Shown: piece after piece, positions 24,578-38,944 of the stretch
How positions within the stretch are numbered: position 1 is the stretch's first letter
How the letters are laid out: each line of letters opens with the position of its first letter
Origin: a virus
Reading direction: 5' to 3' (one strand)
DNA length: 64,000 nucleotides
Virus record (IMG/VR): IMGVR_UViG_3300017743_000002
Location: 38,381 to 102,380 of that record
Notes under the pieces: model-generated
What the model was told of the DNA's origin: nothing
Seen by the model: only the letters and a program-made list of their open reading frames with translations
Database searches by the model: none
Position numbers and translations under genes: made by a program

Positions 24578-25723
24578 TTATAAAAACTTTTTTAATTCAC
24601 TTATTACCATATCTGAAGTAATCTCCTTAGTACACTCAAATTGTCTGTTAGTACCCTTATGGTCAGGACACCAATCCCAATCACCAGCATCTAATCCTAA
24701 TCGGTTAAAACATCCACTACACTTTCCTTTAGGTGAACCGATTCTTACACAATCTTTCATTTCTGCCCAAAGCTCTGAGAATCCACTAATCAAAACTGTC
24801 TTTGTTCCTAACGCCCAACTTAACCAACTCAATCCACTACCAATACCAATGAATGCTTTTGATTTAGCCATTTCATCCATAACTGATTCTAATGGTCCTT
24901 CTGGGTGTTTTATTATTCCCTTTGGGTGTGTGTTACCCATATAGTTATCACCCTCTTTTGAAAGTAATTTAACTTTATAGCCTTTATCATTTAACCAATC
25001 TACTACATCCTGCCAACCAGTTGGGTTGTTCCAATATTTTGGTTGAGCAGTTCCATGTATTGCTATTGTGATTAGTTTATCATCTTTCTCAACATTTCTA
25101 TCTTTTAACTTTGGTTTTATTTCTTTATATTCCAATCCTAATATGTCAGTTGCCATTTTTTGCATAGTAACTTCTTTTGGGTCTGTTGGATTTTTAAAGT
25201 AATCAATACTACCATCATTATAAAATAATCCCAAATTGTACATAGCATATAAATTAGGAACAACATCACCTGGCTTCACAAACTCAATATTAGGATATTG
25301 TTTTTTTAACATATCATTATGAAATGTAGATGTAACTATTTTACAATTATGTTGTTTACCAAACTCCTCAACATATGGAAACCATGCCAATGTATCTCCC
25401 AATGCTTTTGAATCTAGTGCAATATAAACTCGCTTATTAGTTGCATTATAATTTTTTTCAACTACAAGTTTATCGTTTTGCCAAACTCTAATTGTCCAAT
25501 CTACGAAATATCTAATATTAGATTTAGCCCAATGATTTGTTTTTAGTTCAGTTTCATAATGTATAAAATTTGTTTTTTTATCTATAAATTCAACTCTATA
25601 TGTTAAATTCTCTGAACCTAATATTTCAACACATGCACCATTTACATAATCTACTTTTACATAATCTTTTATTTCAACTATGTTATTATTATTTCTTTTT
25701 ATATTATCGTAAATCATTTCCAA
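24578..25723 (-). CDS. TibC/AAH-type protein O-heptosyltransferase
   Basis: This 381-residue protein matches the bacterial autotransporter heptosyltransferase family (GT9-like). The N-terminal 90 residues are a beta domain (YVNGACVEILGS, then RYFVDWTIRVWQN); the catalytic part begins at VYIALDSKALGDTLAWFPYVEEF near residue 100, and the nucleotide-sugar region has GLSWLSWALGTKTVLISGFSE. The C-terminus has the family's cysteine finger: Cys335-x2-Cys338, Cys352 and Cys364, within GDWDWCPDHKG and FECTKEIT. In TibC this finger binds iron and the enzyme moves heptose from ADP-heptose to Ser residues of autotransporter beta-helices. Here the likely acceptor is a phage fibre. It abuts the nucleotidyltransferase gene and overlaps the upstream gene by ten bases. 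Confidence 0.88.
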   Translation of the reverse strand: MEMIYDNIKRNNNNIVEIKDYVKVDYVNGACVEILGSENLTYRVEFIDKKTNFIHYETELKTNHWAKSNIRYFVDWTIRVWQNDKLVVEKNYNATNKRVYIALDSKALGDTLAWFPYVEEFGKQHNCKIVTSTFHNDMLKKQYPNIEFVKPGDVVPNLYAMYNLGLFYNDGSIDYFKNPTDPKEVTMQKMATDILGLEYKEIKPKLKDRNVEKDDKLITIAIHGTAQPKYWNNPTGWQDVVDWLNDKGYKVKLLSKEGDNYMGNTHPKGIIKHPEGPLESVMDEMAKSKAFIGIGSGLSWLSWALGTKTVLISGFSELWAEMKDCVRIGSPKGKCSGCFNRLGLDAGDWDWCPDHKGTNRQFECTKEITSDMVISELKKFL

Positions 25724-27897
25724 CTTTTATTTGTATTATCTAATAATGATAATCCTTCAGCTTGTTTTGAAAAAGGATAGTTTGTTGTGTATCTTAATCT
25801 TTTGTGATGATAGAATACATGATTGTACCATAAATCAGCTACATCCCATTCACAATCTTCAATCCTATCCATATACCATTGTTTATCTCTATTTGGTATT
25901 AAATAAGCATGAGCCCAATCTTGATTGTAATCAGTTTTTCTAAATGTTTCATCAACTTCCCATCTAGTCCAAGATGGATTATCTCCAAAACTAATAAATG
26001 GAACATCATCTTTTTCTGAGATAAAACATGCTTTGTTAACTACATCTACAAAATCTATTAGATTAGAATAAATAAACGCATCTGCCTCAAATATCAAAGT
26101 ATAATCGTAATTATCGGTATCTATTTCTTTTAATGCATTTATATGAGCTAAATAACAACCATAATGTCTGCCTGTAATGTTTCCTATACCTTGCTCACCT
26201 TTATAGATTGGAGTATCGGATATATCATCAGGTCTCCTACAAAACTCTGAAGGTGGTGTTCCATTATACACTTCATTAACCATAGGTTTGTAATCAAATC
26301 CCCAACGTTGAAGTTGTTTTAGTGATTTCTCACTAATTCTCTCTCTAATATCATTTGGGTTTGTCATCATATGGATAATTTGAATACGAGGTCTTTTTCT
26401 ATACCAAACCCAACCCTCTTTTGTTTCTACTTGTCCATAAAAATATTCATCAACTGCTTTAGTTAATCCCTCAAACAAATTAGTTCCAAAATCATCTCCA
26501 CCAATTATACCACCTGGTTTAACTTTATAAAACCAATTGTTTATATCATTTTTAACATCATCATATTCATGTCCAGCATCAACCATTATGAAATCTTGTG
26601 AATTGTTTAGGAAAAGATTTTTAGCATTATCTGATGTATCCTTTATTATTTGTATATCATCGAAGTTATTTGATATAATTGAATTATTAGAAAACTCAGT
26701 ATATAAATCATTATCAAATGGTTTTAACATTGTTCTATGTAATAAGTTATCATATCCAACCGAACCCTTAAATGTATCAATAGCAGTAAATCTTACATTC
26801 TTATTTGTTTCTTTTAGTTTAGTTGCAAAATAGTTAGTTGATTTTCCCATCCAAGAACCAAGCTCTATTACGTTTGAATTATTTGGTAATTTTTCAATTA
26901 CTTCATCATATAATTTTTGATAAGAGAACCAACCAGGAATTTCATTGAACTCTGGTTGTAAGGTTTCTAATAATAAATTTTTTGTTTTATGAATATCATC
27001 ATCGATATAAGTTACCAAATCAGTATTATCATATGTATCTAAAAATGTATGTAATCTTCTAAATATAGATGGTAAGCCGTATGAAAGGGCTTCTTTGATT
27101 GAAAGTGGATTAAGTTCTAATGTTGAACTAAAGTAAAATAAATCAGATGCTTTATAGAATTTATCAGTATCATTTCGTTCACCCCATACAACACAATTTT
27201 TAGGTTTGAAATCCATAAGTGGTTTCCAATAATCTTCAAAATTAATTGCTTGATTTCCTACAAAGTGAAATTTAATTTTATACTTCTCTAATAATCTAGC
27301 TACATCAAATATTTCACTTTGGTTTTTACCAACTGAAAATAAACCAACCATAAGAACATGTTTCCAATCTTTTTCAAAACCTAGTTCTTCTTTGGCTTTA
27401 TCTTTATCATATTTAAAATCTTCAATAGGATATTGCCAAACTTTAGTATCTATTCCCAAATGTTCGAATCTTTGTCTACTCCACTCTGATACTAAAATGT
27501 ATCTATCTGGATGATATTTAATTTTATCCGGATTTGTAAAAGAACCATGTGTTGAACAAACTATATCAAACTTTCTCTTTTTGTTTCCAAAAATTTTATC
27601 TAATGTTGAATGGTCTATGAAATGTTCTGGTATTTCAGTAAAATGAATAATATCGGGCTTTATATCATCTATAAGCTTTATAAATGAATTTCCTTTATCT
27701 TCATATAAAGTATGAAGAGTTACTAAATCACCGATTTGATTTTTTTGAACTACAAATACACCACCACTATGGTCATTGTATTCTACAACTTGAATATCAA
27801 ACTCATTATTAAAAGTTTGTATTTGTTTAAGAAGATATTGTGGCATTCCACCCGTTGAAAGATGAGATGCTACATAAAGTAGTTTTTTCTTTACCAT
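25714..27897 (-). CDS. Glycosyltransferase-methyltransferase-glycosyltransferase fusion
   Basis: Three domains are visible in 727 residues. Residues about 1-315 are a GT-B (GT4-like) glycosyltransferase: LYVASHLSTGGMPQYLLKQI at the start, VLMVGLFSVGKNQSE mid-domain and a late ELNPLSIKEALSYGLPSI, the usual acidic nucleotide-sugar motif. Residues about 320-500 are a class I SAM methyltransferase (VIELGSWMGKSTNYFA, then FIMVDAGHEYDDV and GGIIGGDDF), as in sugar or surface-polymer methyltransferases. Residues about 505-727 resemble GT25-type GT-A enzymes (IQIIHMMTNPNDIRERI, GCYLAHINALKE, then FEADAF in place of the E-D-D metal motif). It heads the glycosylation operon behind a host-type promoter-like site and probably extends or caps the glycan. 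Confidence 0.82.
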   Translation of the reverse strand: MVKKKLLYVASHLSTGGMPQYLLKQIQTFNNEFDIQVVEYNDHSGGVFVVQKNQIGDLVTLHTLYEDKGNSFIKLIDDIKPDIIHFTEIPEHFIDHSTLDKIFGNKKRKFDIVCSTHGSFTNPDKIKYHPDRYILVSEWSRQRFEHLGIDTKVWQYPIEDFKYDKDKAKEELGFEKDWKHVLMVGLFSVGKNQSEIFDVARLLEKYKIKFHFVGNQAINFEDYWKPLMDFKPKNCVVWGERNDTDKFYKASDLFYFSSTLELNPLSIKEALSYGLPSIFRRLHTFLDTYDNTDLVTYIDDDIHKTKNLLLETLQPEFNEIPGWFSYQKLYDEVIEKLPNNSNVIELGSWMGKSTNYFATKLKETNKNVRFTAIDTFKGSVGYDNLLHRTMLKPFDNDLYTEFSNNSIISNNFDDIQIIKDTSDNAKNLFLNNSQDFIMVDAGHEYDDVKNDINNWFYKVKPGGIIGGDDFGTNLFEGLTKAVDEYFYGQVETKEGWVWYRKRPRIQIIHMMTNPNDIRERISEKSLKQLQRWGFDYKPMVNEVYNGTPPSEFCRRPDDISDTPIYKGEQGIGNITGRHYGCYLAHINALKEIDTDNYDYTLIFEADAFIYSNLIDFVDVVNKACFISEKDDVPFISFGDNPSWTRWEVDETFRKTDYNQDWAHAYLIPNRDKQWYMDRIEDCEWDVADLWYNHVFYHHKRLRYTTNYPFSKQAEGLSLLDNTNKSWK

Positions 27898-28870: not shown

Positions 28871-31800
28871 TTAATCTGAGAATAAAACAAAATATACAAT
28901 ATTTGGGTCTCTATCCTGGTCTCCGTTATTATCTTTAACATTTATTTCAACATTAGAAGTTTTTACCTTTACACCAGTATTAAAAGAGAACTCATTATCT
29001 CCCAAATTTGTTCCAGGTCCATTATCAGTACTACCATTTCTACCATATCCATTTGCAAATCCCAATCCACTTGATAAACTAAAACCAGTTGTACTAGTAA
29101 GTGTTACCGTAAATTCTCCCTTTGATGCCCTAGTTACACTCGAAACATTATGGTCATTGTAAGGTCCTTCAATATTTCCAGATGTACTTACACCAAAATA
29201 ACATGCTGCAACTAATTGCATTGTACCAATTGGAGTTCCATTTAATTCTCGCATCCACCCCTCTCTAAAATAGTTAGAGCTGGCACCTAAGTTCCATCCA
29301 GATGTATCTCCATATGCAGCGTGAGGTGTAGGTTTAATATTACCAGCTATTGAAAGAGCCATTTTATCATTAGTGCTTGTACCACCTGATATTTGATTTC
29401 TTGATTCTATTTTTATAGCACCATCAACTACTTCTACTAATTCAACTTCAGTTGCATCTTGGTCTCTTCTATGTAGTCTAGTGAATCTACCTGTACCAGA
29501 TACTACTTGTATTCCCGCAGGAAGTATTTCAATAAAATTATTATTTTTTTGAATACTAATAGTATCTTGGTATGGAACAACAGTACTTTTGCTTCCATTG
29601 TTTAAATAACCCTTTGCACTGGTGTTATCTGAATCAAAGACAAAATTGGATACACCATAAGTTGTAGTTGTAGTTGCACTAGAATTAGCAGATACTGTTA
29701 CACTTGTTGATGCTCTTGACCTAAGATTAATTCTAAATCTAACTTTATAATTACCAGTATTAGGTATTTCTACATCGAAATTGCTAGTACCTCCAGCTAC
29801 AGTACGAAGTCCTTGATTTGACTGACCATAACTGAAATTTTGCTGATTCCATGATAAAGAACCAAATACGTTGTGAGAAATAATATTATTTGAAATATAG
29901 TTTACATAGTTTGGTACAGTAAAAGTTATTACCTCTTCTTCTTTTTCAATTTTTCTAATATTAGTTATAGCAACTTTCTTTTTAGAATCACCATCCTTAA
30001 CCCACAATTTTAAATGATCTTGTGTCATTGGATTGCCAGCTAATTTATATTTATATAATTCTGATACTATTATTTGACCTGAATTTTTTTGATTACCAAA
30101 CAACCAAAATTTATGAGAATCTGATACTTCAATTTCGTTACCATCAATAGTTACTTTATAAATTTCACTTACATTTGATTTTTTAATCTTAGATATTCTT
30201 GCCGATACCCACTTATCAGTATCACTATCCCATGCTAAAATTTTATCATCTAAAGTAATATCTTTTGCTAACTTTGTATTACCATCTTCTAAAGTAATTT
30301 CAGTAGTACCAACTACGGAATTAATTCCCCCACCACCACTACTTGAGGCTTGCCAAAAATAGAATGCTTCGTTAGCTCCATATACATTTAAAGCGCTTAA
30401 ATATTTGGTAGCTACTAATGTACTTGTATCATCATTCCATAATTCCAAATACTGATATATTGCTCTAGACCCATATGAATTTCCACCGAAAATTTGATTT
30501 CCACCATGAACTTGGCCTTCAACTGATGGTGAATAATTTGGTGATGGTGAATTAAATTCTCCTTCAACAATACCAGTAGCATCTAAATGCAATGATGGAT
30601 AATCAATATCAGTAAGTAAAACTGGTCCTGCATCTAATGCCACATTGGCTGAGAAAATTGAATTTTGGTCCTCACTAGCATTTTCTAAAAAACCATATTG
30701 ACTAGTAGTACTAATTCCAATCACATTTTTATAAAAATGCTGTGAGGTCGATTGTGCAAATGTAAATGTACCGCCACCAGCATCAGTCTCTGTAAATGCA
30801 TCTTGGCTTCCAATTGTTACTCTTTCAGTATATTCAGGAACACCATCATATGCAAAACCATCATTATAGATATAGGTTCTATTACCCATACCAACGTGGT
30901 TTTCACAATAGTACCAAAATTCCATTGAGGATGGGTCTCCAACTAATCCGTTACCACCAGCCCACGGAGATTCCATACTAGCAGATGGAATAATTTGAAT
31001 ATATGCACCAGCATTACCAGGATCAGCACTACTTGTTATAATTAAGAAAGGTTGCTGATATTCAGATGTAGTCAATGTTGTTGATTTATTGTATCTTCCA
31101 CCATATGTACCTATTCCATTTTCCCTCATTGAAAAACTAAATTCATGAGTATCCAATGATGAATCTGATAAATCAAAGTAGTATCCTCTATTTTGAACTG
31201 TACCACCAGTACCAGTATCTCCATATGCACTTCTTTCCAAATAAATTACTGGTGCCTCTTCTGCACCATCACCATAATCTATATAAAATTTACTATTTTG
31301 AACTGTAACTGAGGATGTTGCTGGATAATCTAAACTTTGAGTAACAAGAGATGCACTATAAATTTGGATTTCCCCTACGTTAGGGTCAAATCGTATTTCA
31401 CCATCATCATCTTGCAAGATACCACCAGTTCCATCAATTGGGTTACCATTAGAATCTAACTCACGTGGTGTAATTACCCACTGTCCTATGTTACCATCAT
31501 TAGCATCTATTGTTCCTTTTATAAATGCATCAACTGCATTTACAATACCATCTTTAGTAACGGTGAAATTATATGAACGATTATCAACTTCAGTATATTG
31601 TGTAGTTAAATCATATCCTATTTGAAGACCGGGTCCTCTTATTATTGAATTTGAACCTGTACCTAACAGTGCTGCATTTGATAATGCAATTACACCATCA
31701 TTATATATCATAAAATCTGAACCACTTACCAGTGATAATACAGGCGCAGCTGAGCCACTTGGGTATCCTATGAAGATACCATCTTCTTCAAATGATTGAG

Positions 31801-34800
31801 TTGCCTGTCCAATTGAAATAAATGGAGAAGCACTACCATTTTCAGTATCAGCGTTAAGTGATATAACAGGTTTATTATTTTCACCCGTACCAACATTTAT
31901 TGTTCTATTAGCATAAACATCTTCAGCAAAAAGGATATCAGTTGCAACTGAAGTAAATTGTGCTCCAAATATTGCGAATGCATCATCACCATCTAATTGT
32001 AATCCACCACCACCATTCATAGGTACTAAGTTTGATGCAGCACCTAAAGAAGTCCAAAGAGAGCTTGCTTGTGGGTTTGTTGTTCTTGATTGTCCAGTTA
32101 TTGAACTATTAGCCACATAATATGTATTATCAGAACCATTTGTACCTACTGGGTTAAATATGATATCATTTATAGCATAATCTTGTGTGTTTGCAACCCA
32201 ATCTCCTCTATGATAGTGTTCTATTTCCGTAGTATAAAACCTATCCCCGCTTCCATCATTATATTTAACTACATATTTTAAATCACCAGAAAGATATTCG
32301 GTTGGATTATTATAAGTGTTATTTGTACCAACTTTCCAAGCCCCAGCATATACAATACCAGATGCATCCCCATCAGCACCATCTGTACCATCTTTTACTT
32401 TGGTTAAAGTTTGTGTTGTTGTTGCTGTAAACGCATCTCCTAAAAGTCTTATACCTGAAATATTATAAGTTATGGTAACTGTATCTTCATTGTTATCCAT
32501 AGAAGTAAAATCAGCAACCGTTGCAGTAGTTGTACCACCACCACCAAAAGATGGTGTATTCATAGTAGATGCTGGACTTTGAGTAGCCGTAATTGTATAT
32601 ACACCTGTACCAGCTCCAATTGAGGATACTTTTGTTAGTGCAGTTACACCTTCAAATACTCGTATCTCCGTACCACTATTAGTATATGATGAAACCACAC
32701 CAGCAGATGAAGCTGGTAATGAGTGTGCTTGGTTTGTATTAATTACAGTAATTCCATCAACACCATCTGCTCCATCAGATATAATATAGAATGTTTCGTT
32801 TATTGTGGTTGTTTGAGAAGTAGCAGGGTCAGTAAATACTGCAGTTACTACAACATCTTTAGTATCGGTATAATTTGTATCTCCAAGAGTCATTGAAGTA
32901 CCATCCCCATCATCGGCTGTAATTGTAATTTGAGATGCACCCGTTGCAGTACCTATTTTCATTTGGTCTACTGTACCACTCCAATTTGGTGTTATTGTTA
33001 CGTTCTTTGTATATTCAGTTCCAGACGTATCATAGAAAGATGCCTGAACAGTTAATGTAGTTGGGGTATAGATATTAGTTATCGAGTCTCTTGATGTTTT
33101 TAAGTTTGATGCGATAAATGAACCACCACCTAATCCATCGGTTACATCCAATAATGTTATTGAATCTAATACCTGTGGAGTTGGGGTACTGCCATCTTTT
33201 AGTAAAAGTGTTTTAGTTCCATTAATGAAGTCTTTGTCAATGGTTGGATTATAAACTACACCATTACCAGCATCAGTAACACCAGTTTGTACAGCAAGTA
33301 ATGTATTACCATCATAAATTCGTGCATCAGTACCAGATGTTATATTAGCTACTCCATTTAAATCTGCTTTTTGAACTTGTAGTGTAATATTACCACTACT
33401 ATTTTTTATTTGAGTACCACCAGCAGTTGGAGTAATAAAGAAATTTGGCTCAGTATCCGAACCTGGTTTAACACCAAATATGTTAATTACATCACTAATT
33501 AGTTCGGTTTGGTCTTGTCCACTTAATCCACCATCAGCTACACCAACTCTAAATTGAAGAGGCATATCTGATATTGTTGTTCCACTTAAATCAATACTAC
33601 TTACAATATCATTGTTAGTATCAGAACCATCAGTAAATGTAGTTTCATCAGTAAAGTTAGTACCACCACCAGTAAATTTAAAATAAGGGTCTATGAAGTT
33701 AGATGATGATGCAAATACGTTAATTGAAGATGGTGATGGATTGTTACCATTTTGGTCATATGCAATTACAAAAGTATTAGCTGATAATGAAACAGTCTTA
33801 CCAGTTCCAGATGCAGCAGTCCAAGGACCTACTGCTGGAGGTCCATCGGTAGCATCACCACTTACATCAGATGTATGTGCTGAATTTGCTGTCCAACTTT
33901 GTCCGTTATAGATAACCAAATCATCAGCGGCATAAACTGTAGCAGTAGCCCATATACCTCTTAATGTTGGTTCTGTAGCACCAGCAGATGTTTGTCTTAT
34001 GGAACCTCTAATTGTTAAAGTTTCACCATCCCATTTTAATTGGTTATAACTTCCACCATTATTTGTACCCGTTAGTGAAAGTATCCCAGATGTACTATTG
34101 GTTCCAGCACCTGCTCCACCCATATCATTGGTTACTCCTAAGAATGCACCCGGCTGTCCGAATCCTTGAGTACCAGTTTGTCCAACCGCTATGTAAGGTT
34201 CATCCGTTCCACCAACAATTGCTATATTTGCGTTAACGTTTCCAGGAGGTGGTTCACCAACATTGATTGTATTTTTTACAAATGATTCTTCGAAGATTGC
34301 TAACTTAGCAGCAACGAAGAAATCTTGTTGACCTAAATATTGCCATCCCCCAGCATCAATATCACCTTCTTGAGTTGCAGGTGGTCCAGCAGAGTAAACA
34401 GGTTGAGCAGTATAAATACCATCATCATTACCCAATCCATCAGATTCTTCAGTATATTCTGATTTGTTTATTAATTCTTCAGTAGTTGCCCAATAGTGAA
34501 CCTCATCACTAATTTCTCTAAATACAGCATCTCTTCTTTTTTGAGTTAAATCGAATATATATGCTATTTCCTCATCCCATTCACCCCTCACAACAATACC
34601 AGGTCCAGTTGCTCCTTCAAAAACAGTTGAGAATGATTGTTGTACAAATTGTTCACCCCTACCATTTTCAAAATCAATTTTAAATACAATAAATCCTTGT
34701 GTATTTTGTTGAGGTGAATTCCAATTAGTTACAGCAGATGAACTAGCATATAATTCACCAGAAGAAGATACTATTTCTTTTGAATCTCTTAAAGTACCTT

Positions 34801-37800
34801 GTGTTAAAAATGATGATATCTCATGTATAGATGCTGAAAATTGTCCGAATGTACCTATTGGTAAAAATGTTACTGGGTCAACTGCTTGTTCATTATATTG
34901 TTCAACATATTGTAATTCCGTTCCACCTTTGTATGCTCTGAGTAAAGTTCCAGCATTATCAAAATAAGTTGTACCATCAACTTCAACAGTTACTGAAGAT
35001 GCTGGATTTGATAATACTACTGAGTATGCAGCTGAACCTTCTGCTATACCAGATAGAGTTACACTATCAGTATCCACTATTGTTCCAGCAGAGTTACCAT
35101 CTCTTAATTCAACTGTAAATGTTTTTGTTGAACCAGTAGCTGGTAAATCACCAACAGTTGCTGTATTATTTGTAGATGATGCCTGTACCGTAGAACCATC
35201 AACATTTAAGAATTTAAAGAAAGCAGAACCAGTTACATTTATTGCGGTTGCTGATAATACAATATCACCCGAAGGTGCTACTTTAACACCATCACCATCA
35301 TAAATAACAGTATCACTACTAGCTACTAAACTAACCTTTCTTGCAGCAGTTCCATCATTTACTTTTGAAAATGTTTGTGTTTTTGAAACTATTCTCGGAA
35401 CACCAGCTACACCAGCAGTCAATGAATAAGGATAAACCTTAAAGTTATATGTAATACTAGCAGATGGTTGGTTGTTTGCCAATCCACCAAATCCTTTAAA
35501 GTGTAATACTTCTCCACCAGATGAAGATATACTACCAGATACACTTAAATCTCTAAATGAAGATGATAGTTCACTAAATTCTATGTTTGATGCTGATATG
35601 GATGCAGTTACGAATGTACCTGGTCTACCACCATCGTATTCATCATAGAAGAAGAACTCATCGTCTTGTTTTATAAATACTTCAGTTGTTGCGCTTGAAT
35701 AATCAGAAACAAATCCTATTTCATCTGCATTTAATGCGTTAGCAATTGGGTCTAATGTTACTTCAATTGGACCACCACCATCTACTATCTTTGTAAACTT
35801 TTGTATTTTACTTGCAGTTACTAATGATGCAGTAAAGTATGGAAATATATTAAAATCAAATTGTACACTTGCACTTAGTGCTGACATTGTTTCGAATCCA
35901 GACAAACTCATTGTTGTTGTTGAATCACCAACTAAGGTTTCGAAAACTATATTAGTAGGTACAACCGATGTTGTTGTAAATGTACCAGGATTACCACTAC
36001 CAGTATTTATTAAAAATAAATCACCTTGTGTTATTTGTACATCGGTATCAGCTAATCCATAGTTGTAAACATCACCTTTATGATTTGAACCCAATGCTAT
36101 TGGATTTGGGTCTATATCAATAACAATAGAATCTTGACCAGGTAAACCATCAGGCGTAATAAAGAATGTTTTATTTGCAGTTACAGATGCTGAAGTAATT
36201 GGTTCAGTATATGTAAATTCAAAGTTTAATTGTTTTGTTTGAGTAGCAGTATAATATGGAACACTATCTCCAGGTACACCACTATCTATTGAATCACCAA
36301 CAACATTAGTAACAGCTACTGTTATTGTATCATCAAATGCACCAGTATCATAAAATACAAATAACTCAGGTAGTTCAGTTAAAGGTTGAATCGATGCCGA
36401 TGGTTTTACAACCAAACTAGCAGTTAACGGATTCAACGTACTACCTCTTTGTTGGAATGATGATGTTACAATTATCTGAGTCGGGTCAAATGAGAATGCT
36501 TCTCTTGGTTTATACTTTATATTAAATTGGTCTGCGGTTGAGGTTACCAAACCAGGATTCAAACCATCTTTTAAATCAGTTAGAATTTCAGATGTTAAAA
36601 TAGATTCGGTTGTTGGTCCATCCATAAGATAAACTGTCAACTCATTATCAATTGCATCTCTATCAAAGATAGCATTATAATCAATTTCACCACTACCAGT
36701 TTCACCAGCGGTTACACCTTCTAAGAAATCAGGATTTGTGATTGCTTGTGAAAGTGATACATATGTATTTACTTCAGTTAATCCATCTAATGAAGATGAA
36801 AGTACATGAAGTTTAGCTTCAGAAAAATCTTTTTCTAATCCACTTCTTAAATTTATACGATTTATACCATCAACCCTTACTGCTTGAATCTCTAATGTTT
36901 TTGATTCTTTGTTTTTAATTTGTAATCCTCTAAATGGTACTATCTCAAAACTAACTCCACCTTTACCATCTTCAACTCTACTAATTATGAAGGTATCAGA
37001 AACACCTTCTATGGCACCAGTATATCTAATAAATTGTACTGAGATATCATCTCTTGAACCTGTGAAATCTTCTACTCTCAAAAATGGTTCTCTACCACCA
37101 TCTACATCCCAATTAGTTAAGTAACCAGGATAAATACCACCAACATATTGTGATGATGATAATAAGTTACCAAATGAATCAAACGCACCAGATGTATAAG
37201 TTATAGAACCAGTTACCAATGTAGTCTCAACATCAATTGCTATTGTTAGAGGTGGTACTGCGTTAGCTGGATTTGATGCTGAATCAAATGAGAAATATAA
37301 ATTATCAGGTGTAATTTCTATATCCTTTTCAAATAAGTTTGTGTTACCACCACTAAATGTTTTTGTATCTTCAACTCTAACAGGAATAAAATTATTATTG
37401 ATATCATAAAATTCAAATCGATAATCAAATGTTTCGGTTACTAAGAATTTTGGTACTTGTTGAACGAATGTAATTTCATCAGGCGAAAATGAAGTTTCTT
37501 GAGATGCTTTTAAACTAACATTGTTTACATACCAATCACTACCACTTACTTCAAAGTATAATCGTGCAGAATCAAAAGTATCTGCTATAATATTTTCATT
37601 GATATTTGTTTTTTGTAAAATACCATTTGATGAATTAATTGTTGTTATTGTTTGTGATGTTGGTGTACTACCATTAGAACCACTTAAAAATACTTTTAAA
37701 TAATCACCAGAAGTATTTTCTCCTTTTCTTACATTAAAATCTAAAGTATATTCTACACCATTCTGAATTGAAAAACTTTCAGTAGTAAAGAAAAAGTTAT

Positions 37801-38944
37801 CAGGTGATGAATTTAATTTTGCTGAGTTATATAATACATCTTGATTAAATGTTACATTAAAATCATTTGATGATGTTACCCAATATTCATCTATTACTGG
37901 TTGTGTGAAGAATCCATAAGGTTCTTCTTTTTTAGCGAAGGTTGTTATATCTCTTAATACCTCATTTGATTCTAATTGTATTTCTTGCACAAATTCGAAA
38001 TCAGTTAAGTTTGATTGAGACCTTCTAAATACTTTTACTCTTGCAGCATCACCTACAAAAGTTTTCATATCAGTAATACTAATCTTAGCAAATGAACCAG
38101 TTAGTGCAGTTGCTAAATCAGCTACATTTTCTATATATGGAAATTCTAATGAATAACTTTCATTTGTAAATGATGTTACAATATTGTTTTCCGCATATGG
38201 AGGAGATACAATTATTTCATTTTCATTTACAATTTCTTTAATTTTTGGAGCATAATTAATATTATCAAATGTAATGATTTCCTCATCAATTGAACCTGTC
38301 CATTTATTTCCACTCTTAATTTTTAATCTATAATTTGTAGGTAATGTAAAATTACTTAAATCAGTTCCTGCGTTTGGAACCAATGGAATACCATCTACTA
38401 CTCCAGTTTGTGTTACTACTGGTGGATTATCACTAAAGATTGGTTTTACTATTTCATCTATGGTAACCTCAGGTCTACGATAGAATCTAACTTTATCTTC
38501 GTTAGCTAATAGTTTATTGATTTGAAAGGTTCTTTCCCACTTAACATTATAGGCACCTTTCCATTGATTTGGAACTTCTCGTTTTACACCATTATCATCA
38601 TACTCCTTTAGTTCACCTAAAACAGTAATCTTACCCAATCCAATTGGAGTATCATTATAAATGTAAACAGCTATTAGTTTAGATATACCCTCATAGTATT
38701 CTGGAATACCATTACCTGGTTCAAAATAGATTGGGTTTCCAGCAACATCTAAAAGTTCAATCTTTATTTCAGTTGATTCTTTTAGGTATTCTGAACCCTC
38801 TATTAAAAATCCATTCTTACCACCAGTAAATGTATCCTTAAATTCGGTTATTCTAAAGTAATCCGAATTTGGAGTTTCATCTTCTATGAATGTCTGAAAT
38901 GATGATAAGTTTTGTTCGGGTGAATATTTTTTTATTCTTGCCAT
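28871..38944 (-). CDS. Giant tail-fibre-like protein (3357 aa) with embedded Hint domain
   Basis: This very long, Ser/Thr/Gly-rich protein resembles marine T4-like phage fibre proteins at its N-terminus (MARIKKYSPEQNLSSFQTFI, then YNDTPIGLGKITVLGELKEY). The shaft holds many beta-sandwich/Ig-like segments, including two tandem ~125-residue modules at about 940-1195 (both with a TFVTAS/TFTTTS segment and ending in KVNDG or KIVDGG) and a related one near 2068. Around 2450-2520 is a fibre-like IGQWVITPRELDSNG region. Residues 2876-3025 are a Hint domain, and a final ~330-residue region (WNQQNFSYGQSNQG, later FREGWMRELNGTPIG) is probably the receptor-binding tip. It is the neighbour of the glycosylation operon. 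Start ATG at 38944; a TATTTATA element lies 26 bases upstream. Confidence 0.85.
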   Translation of the reverse strand: MARIKKYSPEQNLSSFQTFIEDETPNSDYFRITEFKDTFTGGKNGFLIEGSEYLKESTEIKIELLDVAGNPIYFEPGNGIPEYYEGISKLIAVYIYNDTPIGLGKITVLGELKEYDDNGVKREVPNQWKGAYNVKWERTFQINKLLANEDKVRFYRRPEVTIDEIVKPIFSDNPPVVTQTGVVDGIPLVPNAGTDLSNFTLPTNYRLKIKSGNKWTGSIDEEIITFDNINYAPKIKEIVNENEIIVSPPYAENNIVTSFTNESYSLEFPYIENVADLATALTGSFAKISITDMKTFVGDAARVKVFRRSQSNLTDFEFVQEIQLESNEVLRDITTFAKKEEPYGFFTQPVIDEYWVTSSNDFNVTFNQDVLYNSAKLNSSPDNFFFTTESFSIQNGVEYTLDFNVRKGENTSGDYLKVFLSGSNGSTPTSQTITTINSSNGILQKTNINENIIADTFDSARLYFEVSGSDWYVNNVSLKASQETSFSPDEITFVQQVPKFLVTETFDYRFEFYDINNNFIPVRVEDTKTFSGGNTNLFEKDIEITPDNLYFSFDSASNPANAVPPLTIAIDVETTLVTGSITYTSGAFDSFGNLLSSSQYVGGIYPGYLTNWDVDGGREPFLRVEDFTGSRDDISVQFIRYTGAIEGVSDTFIISRVEDGKGGVSFEIVPFRGLQIKNKESKTLEIQAVRVDGINRINLRSGLEKDFSEAKLHVLSSSLDGLTEVNTYVSLSQAITNPDFLEGVTAGETGSGEIDYNAIFDRDAIDNELTVYLMDGPTTESILTSEILTDLKDGLNPGLVTSTADQFNIKYKPREAFSFDPTQIIVTSSFQQRGSTLNPLTASLVVKPSASIQPLTELPELFVFYDTGAFDDTITVAVTNVVGDSIDSGVPGDSVPYYTATQTKQLNFEFTYTEPITSASVTANKTFFITPDGLPGQDSIVIDIDPNPIALGSNHKGDVYNYGLADTDVQITQGDLFLINTGSGNPGTFTTTSVVPTNIVFETLVGDSTTTMSLSGFETMSALSASVQFDFNIFPYFTASLVTASKIQKFTKIVDGGGPIEVTLDPIANALNADEIGFVSDYSSATTEVFIKQDDEFFFYDEYDGGRPGTFVTASISASNIEFSELSSSFRDLSVSGSISSSGGEVLHFKGFGGLANNQPSASITYNFKVYPYSLTAGVAGVPRIVSKTQTFSKVNDGTAARKVSLVASSDTVIYDGDGVKVAPSGDIVLSATAINVTGSAFFKFLNVDGSTVQASSTNNTATVGDLPATGSTKTFTVELRDGNSAGTIVDTDSVTLSGIAEGSAAYSVVLSNPASSVTVEVDGTTYFDNAGTLLRAYKGGTELQYVEQYNEQAVDPVTFLPIGTFGQFSASIHEISSFLTQGTLRDSKEIVSSSGELYASSSAVTNWNSPQQNTQGFIVFKIDFENGRGEQFVQQSFSTVFEGATGPGIVVRGEWDEEIAYIFDLTQKRRDAVFREISDEVHYWATTEELINKSEYTEESDGLGNDDGIYTAQPVYSAGPPATQEGDIDAGGWQYLGQQDFFVAAKLAIFEESFVKNTINVGEPPPGNVNANIAIVGGTDEPYIAVGQTGTQGFGQPGAFLGVTNDMGGAGAGTNSTSGILSLTGTNNGGSYNQLKWDGETLTIRGSIRQTSAGATEPTLRGIWATATVYAADDLVIYNGQSWTANSAHTSDVSGDATDGPPAVGPWTAASGTGKTVSLSANTFVIAYDQNGNNPSPSSINVFASSSNFIDPYFKFTGGGTNFTDETTFTDGSDTNNDIVSSIDLSGTTISDMPLQFRVGVADGGLSGQDQTELISDVINIFGVKPGSDTEPNFFITPTAGGTQIKNSSGNITLQVQKADLNGVANITSGTDARIYDGNTLLAVQTGVTDAGNGVVYNPTIDKDFINGTKTLLLKDGSTPTPQVLDSITLLDVTDGLGGGSFIASNLKTSRDSITNIYTPTTLTVQASFYDTSGTEYTKNVTITPNWSGTVDQMKIGTATGASQITITADDGDGTSMTLGDTNYTDTKDVVVTAVFTDPATSQTTTINETFYIISDGADGVDGITVINTNQAHSLPASSAGVVSSYTNSGTEIRVFEGVTALTKVSSIGAGTGVYTITATQSPASTMNTPSFGGGGTTTATVADFTSMDNNEDTVTITYNISGIRLLGDAFTATTTQTLTKVKDGTDGADGDASGIVYAGAWKVGTNNTYNNPTEYLSGDLKYVVKYNDGSGDRFYTTEIEHYHRGDWVANTQDYAINDIIFNPVGTNGSDNTYYVANSSITGQSRTTNPQASSLWTSLGAASNLVPMNGGGGLQLDGDDAFAIFGAQFTSVATDILFAEDVYANRTINVGTGENNKPVISLNADTENGSASPFISIGQATQSFEEDGIFIGYPSGSAAPVLSLVSGSDFMIYNDGVIALSNAALLGTGSNSIIRGPGLQIGYDLTTQYTEVDNRSYNFTVTKDGIVNAVDAFIKGTIDANDGNIGQWVITPRELDSNGNPIDGTGGILQDDDGEIRFDPNVGEIQIYSASLVTQSLDYPATSSVTVQNSKFYIDYGDGAEEAPVIYLERSAYGDTGTGGTVQNRGYYFDLSDSSLDTHEFSFSMRENGIGTYGGRYNKSTTLTTSEYQQPFLIITSSADPGNAGAYIQIIPSASMESPWAGGNGLVGDPSSMEFWYYCENHVGMGNRTYIYNDGFAYDGVPEYTERVTIGSQDAFTETDAGGGTFTFAQSTSQHFYKNVIGISTTSQYGFLENASEDQNSIFSANVALDAGPVLLTDIDYPSLHLDATGIVEGEFNSPSPNYSPSVEGQVHGGNQIFGGNSYGSRAIYQYLELWNDDTSTLVATKYLSALNVYGANEAFYFWQASSSGGGGINSVVGTTEITLEDGNTKLAKDITLDDKILAWDSDTDKWVSARISKIKKSNVSEIYKVTIDGNEIEVSDSHKFWLFGNQKNSGQIIVSELYKYKLAGNPMTQDHLKLWVKDGDSKKKVAITNIRKIEKEEEVITFTVPNYVNYISNNIISHNVFGSLSWNQQNFSYGQSNQGLRTVAGGTSNFDVEIPNTGNYKVRFRINLRSRASTSVTVSANSSATTTTTYGVSNFVFDSDNTSAKGYLNNGSKSTVVPYQDTISIQKNNNFIEILPAGIQVVSGTGRFTRLHRRDQDATEVELVEVVDGAIKIESRNQISGGTSTNDKMALSIAGNIKPTPHAAYGDTSGWNLGASSNYFREGWMRELNGTPIGTMQLVAACYFGVSTSGNIEGPYNDHNVSSVTRASKGEFTVTLTSTTGFSLSSGLGFANGYGRNGSTDNGPGTNLGDNEFSFNTGVKVKTSNVEINVKDNNGDQDRDPNIVYFVLFSD
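29870..30319 (-). other. Hint (intein-like) domain within the giant fibre
   Basis: Residues 2876-3025 carry the intein/Hedgehog block order. Block A is SVVGTTEITLEDGN with Ser at position 1 instead of the usual Cys; block B is EVSDSHKFWLF with the His; blocks F/G are NYVNYISNNIISHN with the penultimate His and terminal Asn. The next residue is Val, not Cys/Ser/Thr, so ordinary splicing is unlikely; cleavage at the Asn or at the Ser is possible. The upstream flank is a GGGG hinge (SSSGGGGIN). There is no homing endonuclease insert (150 residues). Confidence 0.82.

Follow-up and report, generated by a model that had tools for sequence, protein, structure and literature searches.

A Ser1 Hint domain close to the tip of a giant phage tail fibre: a probable self-processing module

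In an uncultured phage of the T4-like kind, a giant tail-fibre protein hosts a Hint (intein-like) domain near its distal end. Such a domain is found in roughly one in four of the related fibres, which points to a module that is probably working, optional and self-processing. Our preferred reading, to which we give somewhat better than even odds, is that of a single-turnover module resembling type A bacterial intein-like (BIL) domains, in which cutting dominates over rejoining. The 102-kb virus record encodes T4-type genes (major capsid gp23, portal gp20, terminase gp17 and a baseplate wedge protein). The features of the fibre, in coordinates of the window (the whole 64,000-nucleotide stretch of DNA analysed), are as follows.

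28871..38944, minus strand: giant fibre ORF, 3357 aa (ORF call; conserved N-terminus)
33821..33952, minus strand: CBM_5_12-like carbohydrate-binding module in the shaft, residues 1665-1708 (Pfam PF02839, E 2.6e-6, over cut-off)
30326..30652, minus strand: N-extein domain, about residues 2765-2873, hypervariable, predicted all-beta (profile E 1e-27)
30320..30346, minus strand: Gly/Ser-rich linker SSSGGGGIN (approximate) preceding Ser1, from the sequence
29870..30319, minus strand: Hint domain, Ser2876-Asn3025, 150 aa (Pfam, alignment, AlphaFold, Foldseek, family profile)
30317..30319, minus strand: Ser1 (Ser2876), putative nucleophile of the N junction, conserved as Ser in 26/26 aligned copies and likewise in the 6 others
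30113..30124, minus strand: block B motif S2941-D-S-H2944 (TxxH-like), Ser and His invariant in 26/26
29870..29875, minus strand: block G, His3024-Asn3025, invariant in 26/26
29867..29869, minus strand: +1 residue Val3026 (not C/S/T), from the sequence
29372..29860, minus strand: C-extein domain, about residues 3029-3191, hypervariable, predicted mainly beta (profile E 2e-40)
28874..29371, minus strand: distal tip, about residues 3192-3357, no match in a Pfam search

The two extein profiles were made from the 115 residues preceding and the 165 residues following each of 26 Hint domains, the window copy included. At the other end of the fibre, the N-terminus (MARIKKYSP...) is common to 114 IMG/VR stretches. 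The distal tip varies: the place of the unnamed tip of the window fibre is taken in relatives by a Gp53-like_C tip (L004 and L007; L008 falls just under the cut-off) or by an S74-type tip (L012, assigned from sequence, and L031, assigned by its match to many phage fibres). Pfam found no Peptidase S74 domain in the window fibre. The fibre has only two cysteines (2680 and 3248) among its 3357 residues, which may be why position 1 of the Hint domain is Ser rather than Cys. A glycosyltransferase/methyltransferase fusion protein (25714-27897) adjoins the fibre in the window and is kept beside it in relatives L002-L004, L007, L008 and L010.

The domain was recognized by several means. Pfam PF14890 (Intein_splicing) matches residues 2883-3025 with an E value of 1.1e-6, at 29 bits against a cut-off of 35.8; in the search of the whole record the match passes the cut-off, with 36.4 bits including neighbours. 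A family profile built from 26 relatives, including the window copy, gives this place an E value of 1.6e-64 and found no second Hint domain in the 102-kb record. The AlphaFold model, built from the 26 relatives, is confident (pLDDT 89.3, pTM 0.84), and a Foldseek search with it retrieved a mixture of BIL and intein structures with E values from 1e-10 to 3e-8, headed by BIL2 of Tetrahymena, DnaB inteins and the Clostridium thermocellum BIL 2lwy. With its predicted fold and blocks A, B, F and G, the fibre domain thus has what defines the Hint superfamily, and chance is excluded as the source of the match. At the block F position, the window copy has Val where some relatives have His. In profile comparisons, inteins (E 5e-9) scored somewhat better than the bacterial BIL 2lwy (E 4.6e-6), the sequence profile of the fibre domain being closer to DnaB/DnaX inteins. 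A three-domain model of the Hint domain with both flanks reached a pTM of 0.47, too weak for domain contacts. An earlier note made from the sequence alone had placed a 150-residue Hint domain at exactly these coordinates, with Ser at position 1, Val after the terminal Asn and about 330 residues of tip beyond it in a 3357-residue fibre; all of this is borne out by the ORF, Pfam, AlphaFold and Foldseek results, and 332 residues remain C-terminal to the domain. It had also proposed a comparison with bacterial intein-like domains; the best solved matches of the model are BIL domains and DnaB inteins.

We searched for the family by scanning IMG/VR with the Hint domain, the C-extein domain and the fibre N-terminus. 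This yielded 32 distinct Ser1 Hint domains (26 aligned and 6 more), all of which reside in fibre-like ORFs of uncultured phages. Among the 26 aligned copies, identity to the window domain falls to 31%, and only 11 columns are invariant: S1, V2, V65, S66, H69, F71, V130, N140, Y141, H149 and N150 (Hint numbering). These columns include the catalytic residues at the two junctions, which therefore rank among the best-conserved positions. No relatives were found in sequenced phages when four Hint regions were compared by tblastn with 50,697 phage records, nor in prokaryote genomes by a profile scan of GTDB genomes, and searching with the N-extein profile by itself added no new fibre. Two candidate relatives were set aside. 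The record of Microcystis phage Mel-JY01, considered as a cultured relative, has only the fibre N-terminus, at its end. The Hint domains of the 484-kb uncultured phage LR756508 lie in a different protein, portal-like by visual inspection. As S and T stand at +1 there, these are more likely to be ordinary inteins; this portal-like ORF (L145, 26044-28456) has three Hint/intein stretches.

Other kinds of Hint domain occur in and around the related fibres. In six relatives (L033, L036, L039, L040, L047 and L049), an ORF of 235-252 aa just after the fibre encodes a second Hint protein, in which an N-terminal domain (MALQTSGAISL..DFDDFYG) is joined through a Gly/Ser linker to a Cys1 Hint domain at the C-terminal side (CLVYGTLI..AEGFLTHN) that is followed by 8-26 residues. 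The fibre ORFs of L051-L059 carry tandem domains, a Cys1 Hint (ILTHN|VKLESFV) followed directly by a Ser1 Hint (IISHN|D). The fibres of L123, L186 and L190 have in their distal part a Cys1 Hint (CVLPGTKI..ILSHN) that belongs to another lineage and has M or T at +1, and tandem Cys1 Hints (..HNK stop) end a viral protein of 755-775 aa in L013, L015, L016 and L017.

The residue that follows the terminal Asn varies widely. Across the 26 copies it is Pro in ten, Val in five, Thr in four, Ile and Ser in two each, and Ala, Asp and Phe in one each. A Cys, Ser or Thr is thus present in 6/26 (23%), equal to the background of 23.7% over the following 150 residues, and hence nothing points to a nucleophile being selected for; including the six further copies, the count is 7/32. 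When the nucleophile label is mapped on the Hint tree, it requires four changes, three of them forced by well-supported branches, and the near-identical pair L041/L035 has Ser and Pro, respectively, differing by one inserted residue. Pro at +1 far exceeds its background of 2.7% (binomial 8e-10, kinship ignored), and its frequent presence there is, to our knowledge, unusual for Hint domains. Across the family, the canonical splicing step is therefore not the conserved one.

Next, we compared fibres with and without the domain. Among 48 distinct complete fibres sharing the N-terminus (that is, with both N-terminus and stop codon, counted as deposited contigs rather than independent events), 13 carry a Hint domain and 35 do not; twelve of the 13 are of the Ser1 kind and one (L123) is of the Cys1 kind. 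The clearest direct joins of both flanking domains in Hint-less fibres are those of L101, where the N-extein profile stops one residue before the C-extein profile starts, and L071, which is 67% identical to the window fibre over 2530 residues. In L071, L128 and L143, the C-extein domain (E 2e-17 to 3e-12) comes directly after a similar strand, with the N-extein profile below significance. Conversely, all 16 distinct loci newly found with the C-extein domain alone as query carry a Hint domain. The direct junctions and the newly found loci thus show an optional module, which some fibres have and others lack at one fixed site between two beta-rich domains.

The domain is better conserved than its surroundings. 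Between the window and L002, amino acid identity is 94% in the Hint domain, 51% in the N-extein and 61% in the C-extein, and a sliding comparison dips on both sides of the Hint domain and recovers further out. In all eight pairs compared, the dN of the Hint domain was lower than that of the flanks, except against one C-extein. We dropped dN/dS as proof of constraint, since the dS of the Hint domain is low as well as its dN: for the window and L002, dS is 0.07 in the Hint domain and about 0.5 in the flanking domains. The contrast may therefore partly reflect exchange or fast change of the flanks, besides constraint on the Hint domain. By these comparisons, the Hint domain is an island of conservation, with a hypervariable beta-rich domain on either side.

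A route for self-processing can be drawn from the predicted fold and the conserved residues. Once the fibre folds, the Hint domain would bring its own two ends together. Cyclisation of Asn3025, aided by His3024, would sever the chain ahead of Val3026 and release the tip chain of 332 residues. Ser2876, aided by His2944, would turn the peptide bond between shaft and Hint domain into an ester, which would undergo either hydrolysis or attack by the amino end newly exposed on the tip. Some fibres would then be cut and others rejoined minus the Hint domain, with cut products expected to predominate, in line with the type A BILs characterised so far. A reaction at the N junction as well is probable, since Ser1 is invariant and a reaction confined to the C junction would not require it. 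That a domain in the distal part of the fibre has the chemistry to break both junctions agrees with the earlier note, and such a cut may act as the maturation switch that the note proposed. The invariance of Ser1, the optional and recurrent presence of the module and its place between hypervariable domains go beyond that note. Ser1 would give an oxoester, which reacts less readily than the thioester formed by Cys in published BILs, and the change of the block F His to Val in the window copy could slow Asn cyclisation. Since the domain is optional and flanked by fast-changing domains, the module would separate a replaceable distal part from the shaft. Against this route, a cut fibre would lose its tip unless ligation or tight binding kept it in place; the somewhat better profile scores of inteins than of 2lwy and the abundance of Pro at +1 also weigh against it.

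Type A BILs offer the nearest published scheme: they have a His-Asn end, lack a +1 nucleophile, lie in hypervariable surroundings and mostly cleave (PMC4031507; PMC7765530; PMC7664689), although they can also splice by aminolysis (PMC4031507). The fibre domain shares the His-Asn end (26/26 copies) and the location in a hypervariable region of a large protein; a +1 nucleophile is absent from the window copy, which has Val, but not from the whole family, where 6/26 have Thr or Ser. It matches 2lwy in fold (Foldseek E 2.6e-8, TMt 0.81). Type A BILs differ in having Cys1 and residing in bacterial proteins, whereas here Ser1 stands in a phage tail fibre and Pro is common at +1. The best structural match, BIL2 of the Tetrahymena BUBL1 locus (6y75, 6tmm; E 1e-10), likewise has the block B His as a key residue, but has Cys1 and forms an isopeptide bond between ubiquitin-like domains (PMC8616854). 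Self-cleavage of YscU/FlhB (NPTH) takes place between Asn and Pro and leaves the pieces together (PMC3504009), a precedent for the copies ending in His-Asn-Pro, although its fold is unrelated and it serves as a secretion switch. Finally, the Peptidase S74 chaperone resembles the fibre Hint as an autoproteolytic module (putatively so in the Hint domain) near the C end of a trimeric fibre, but its fold and chemistry are unrelated and it sits at the very C end.

Several other explanations may account for the domain, and of these a splicing-dominant one is a real, if doubtful, possibility. Here, the amino group of the freed tip would attack the Ser1 ester, leaving a continuous Hint-less fibre without the use of a +1 nucleophile. 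The invariance of Ser1, which pure C-terminal cutting does not need, speaks for it, as do the flanking domains directly joined in L101 and L071, which make the ligated product a plausible fibre, and the capacity of type A BILs for the same route (PMC4031507). Published type A BILs nevertheless yield mostly cleavage products (PMC4031507), a Ser ester is a weak acceptor, and the Pro found at +1 in ten copies would be a poor attacking amine. The view of the earlier note that the domain probably cleaves rather than splices therefore stands in part: cleavage is favoured and the +1 nucleophile shows no selection across the family, but the exclusion of splicing is not upheld, given that type A BILs splice without that residue (PMC4031507). 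It is quite improbable, though conceivable, that the Ser1 ester of the shaft is rejoined to the freed tip of another fibre or to another protein. A transferase-like module that passes the ester to an amine on another fibre chain, another virion protein or the host surface, much as BIL2 hands a ubiquitin-like domain to a lysine, is very unlikely; the closest solved structures are those of BIL2, which makes its isopeptide bond with lysine (PMC8616854), and the N junction is invariant, yet we found no conserved Lys in either flanking domain and no partner is known.

The remaining explanations would deny the domain a special activity or make it an ordinary intein. An inert structural insert, or a decayed intein retained as a fold, would suit a window copy that has neither the block F His nor a +1 nucleophile, but it is improbable: the residues invariant in 26 divergent copies are the catalytic ones of both junctions, which argues against a dead remnant or mere scaffold, and the dN of the domain lies below that of its flanks with the one exception given above. 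A class 1 intein is barely tenable. Class 1 mini-inteins (Ssp/Npu DnaB) share the fold, the block order, Ser/Cys1 and His-Asn with the fibre domain, block B is in place, and some relatives do have Thr or Ser at +1. However, these inteins require Cys, Ser or Thr at +1 and occupy conserved enzyme sites; the Val of the window contradicts the canonical branched intermediate, a +1 nucleophile is no commoner in the family than in the background, 150 aa leave no room for an endonuclease domain, and the insertion lies in a poorly conserved part of the protein. Class 2 and class 3 inteins were rejected on account of the Ser1 in every aligned copy.

None of the open-access papers searched describes a Hint domain located in a phage tail fibre, a negative qualified by the several phage proteins that BFVD names "Hint domain." If active, the module would add a second self-processing chemistry to phage fibres, next to that of the S74 chaperone. 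It lies in a rapidly changing part of the fibre and is combined with an S74-type tip in some phages (L012, L031). The natural set, with Ser1 fixed and P, V, I, A, T, S, D or F at +1, forms a panel for Hint domains without a selected splicing nucleophile, and the copies with Pro at +1 are candidates for cutting at Asn-Pro bonds. Were freed tips instead exchanged between fibres or joined to other proteins, one phage would make mosaic or covalently cross-linked fibres, and protein splicing would be used to assemble a receptor-binding organ.
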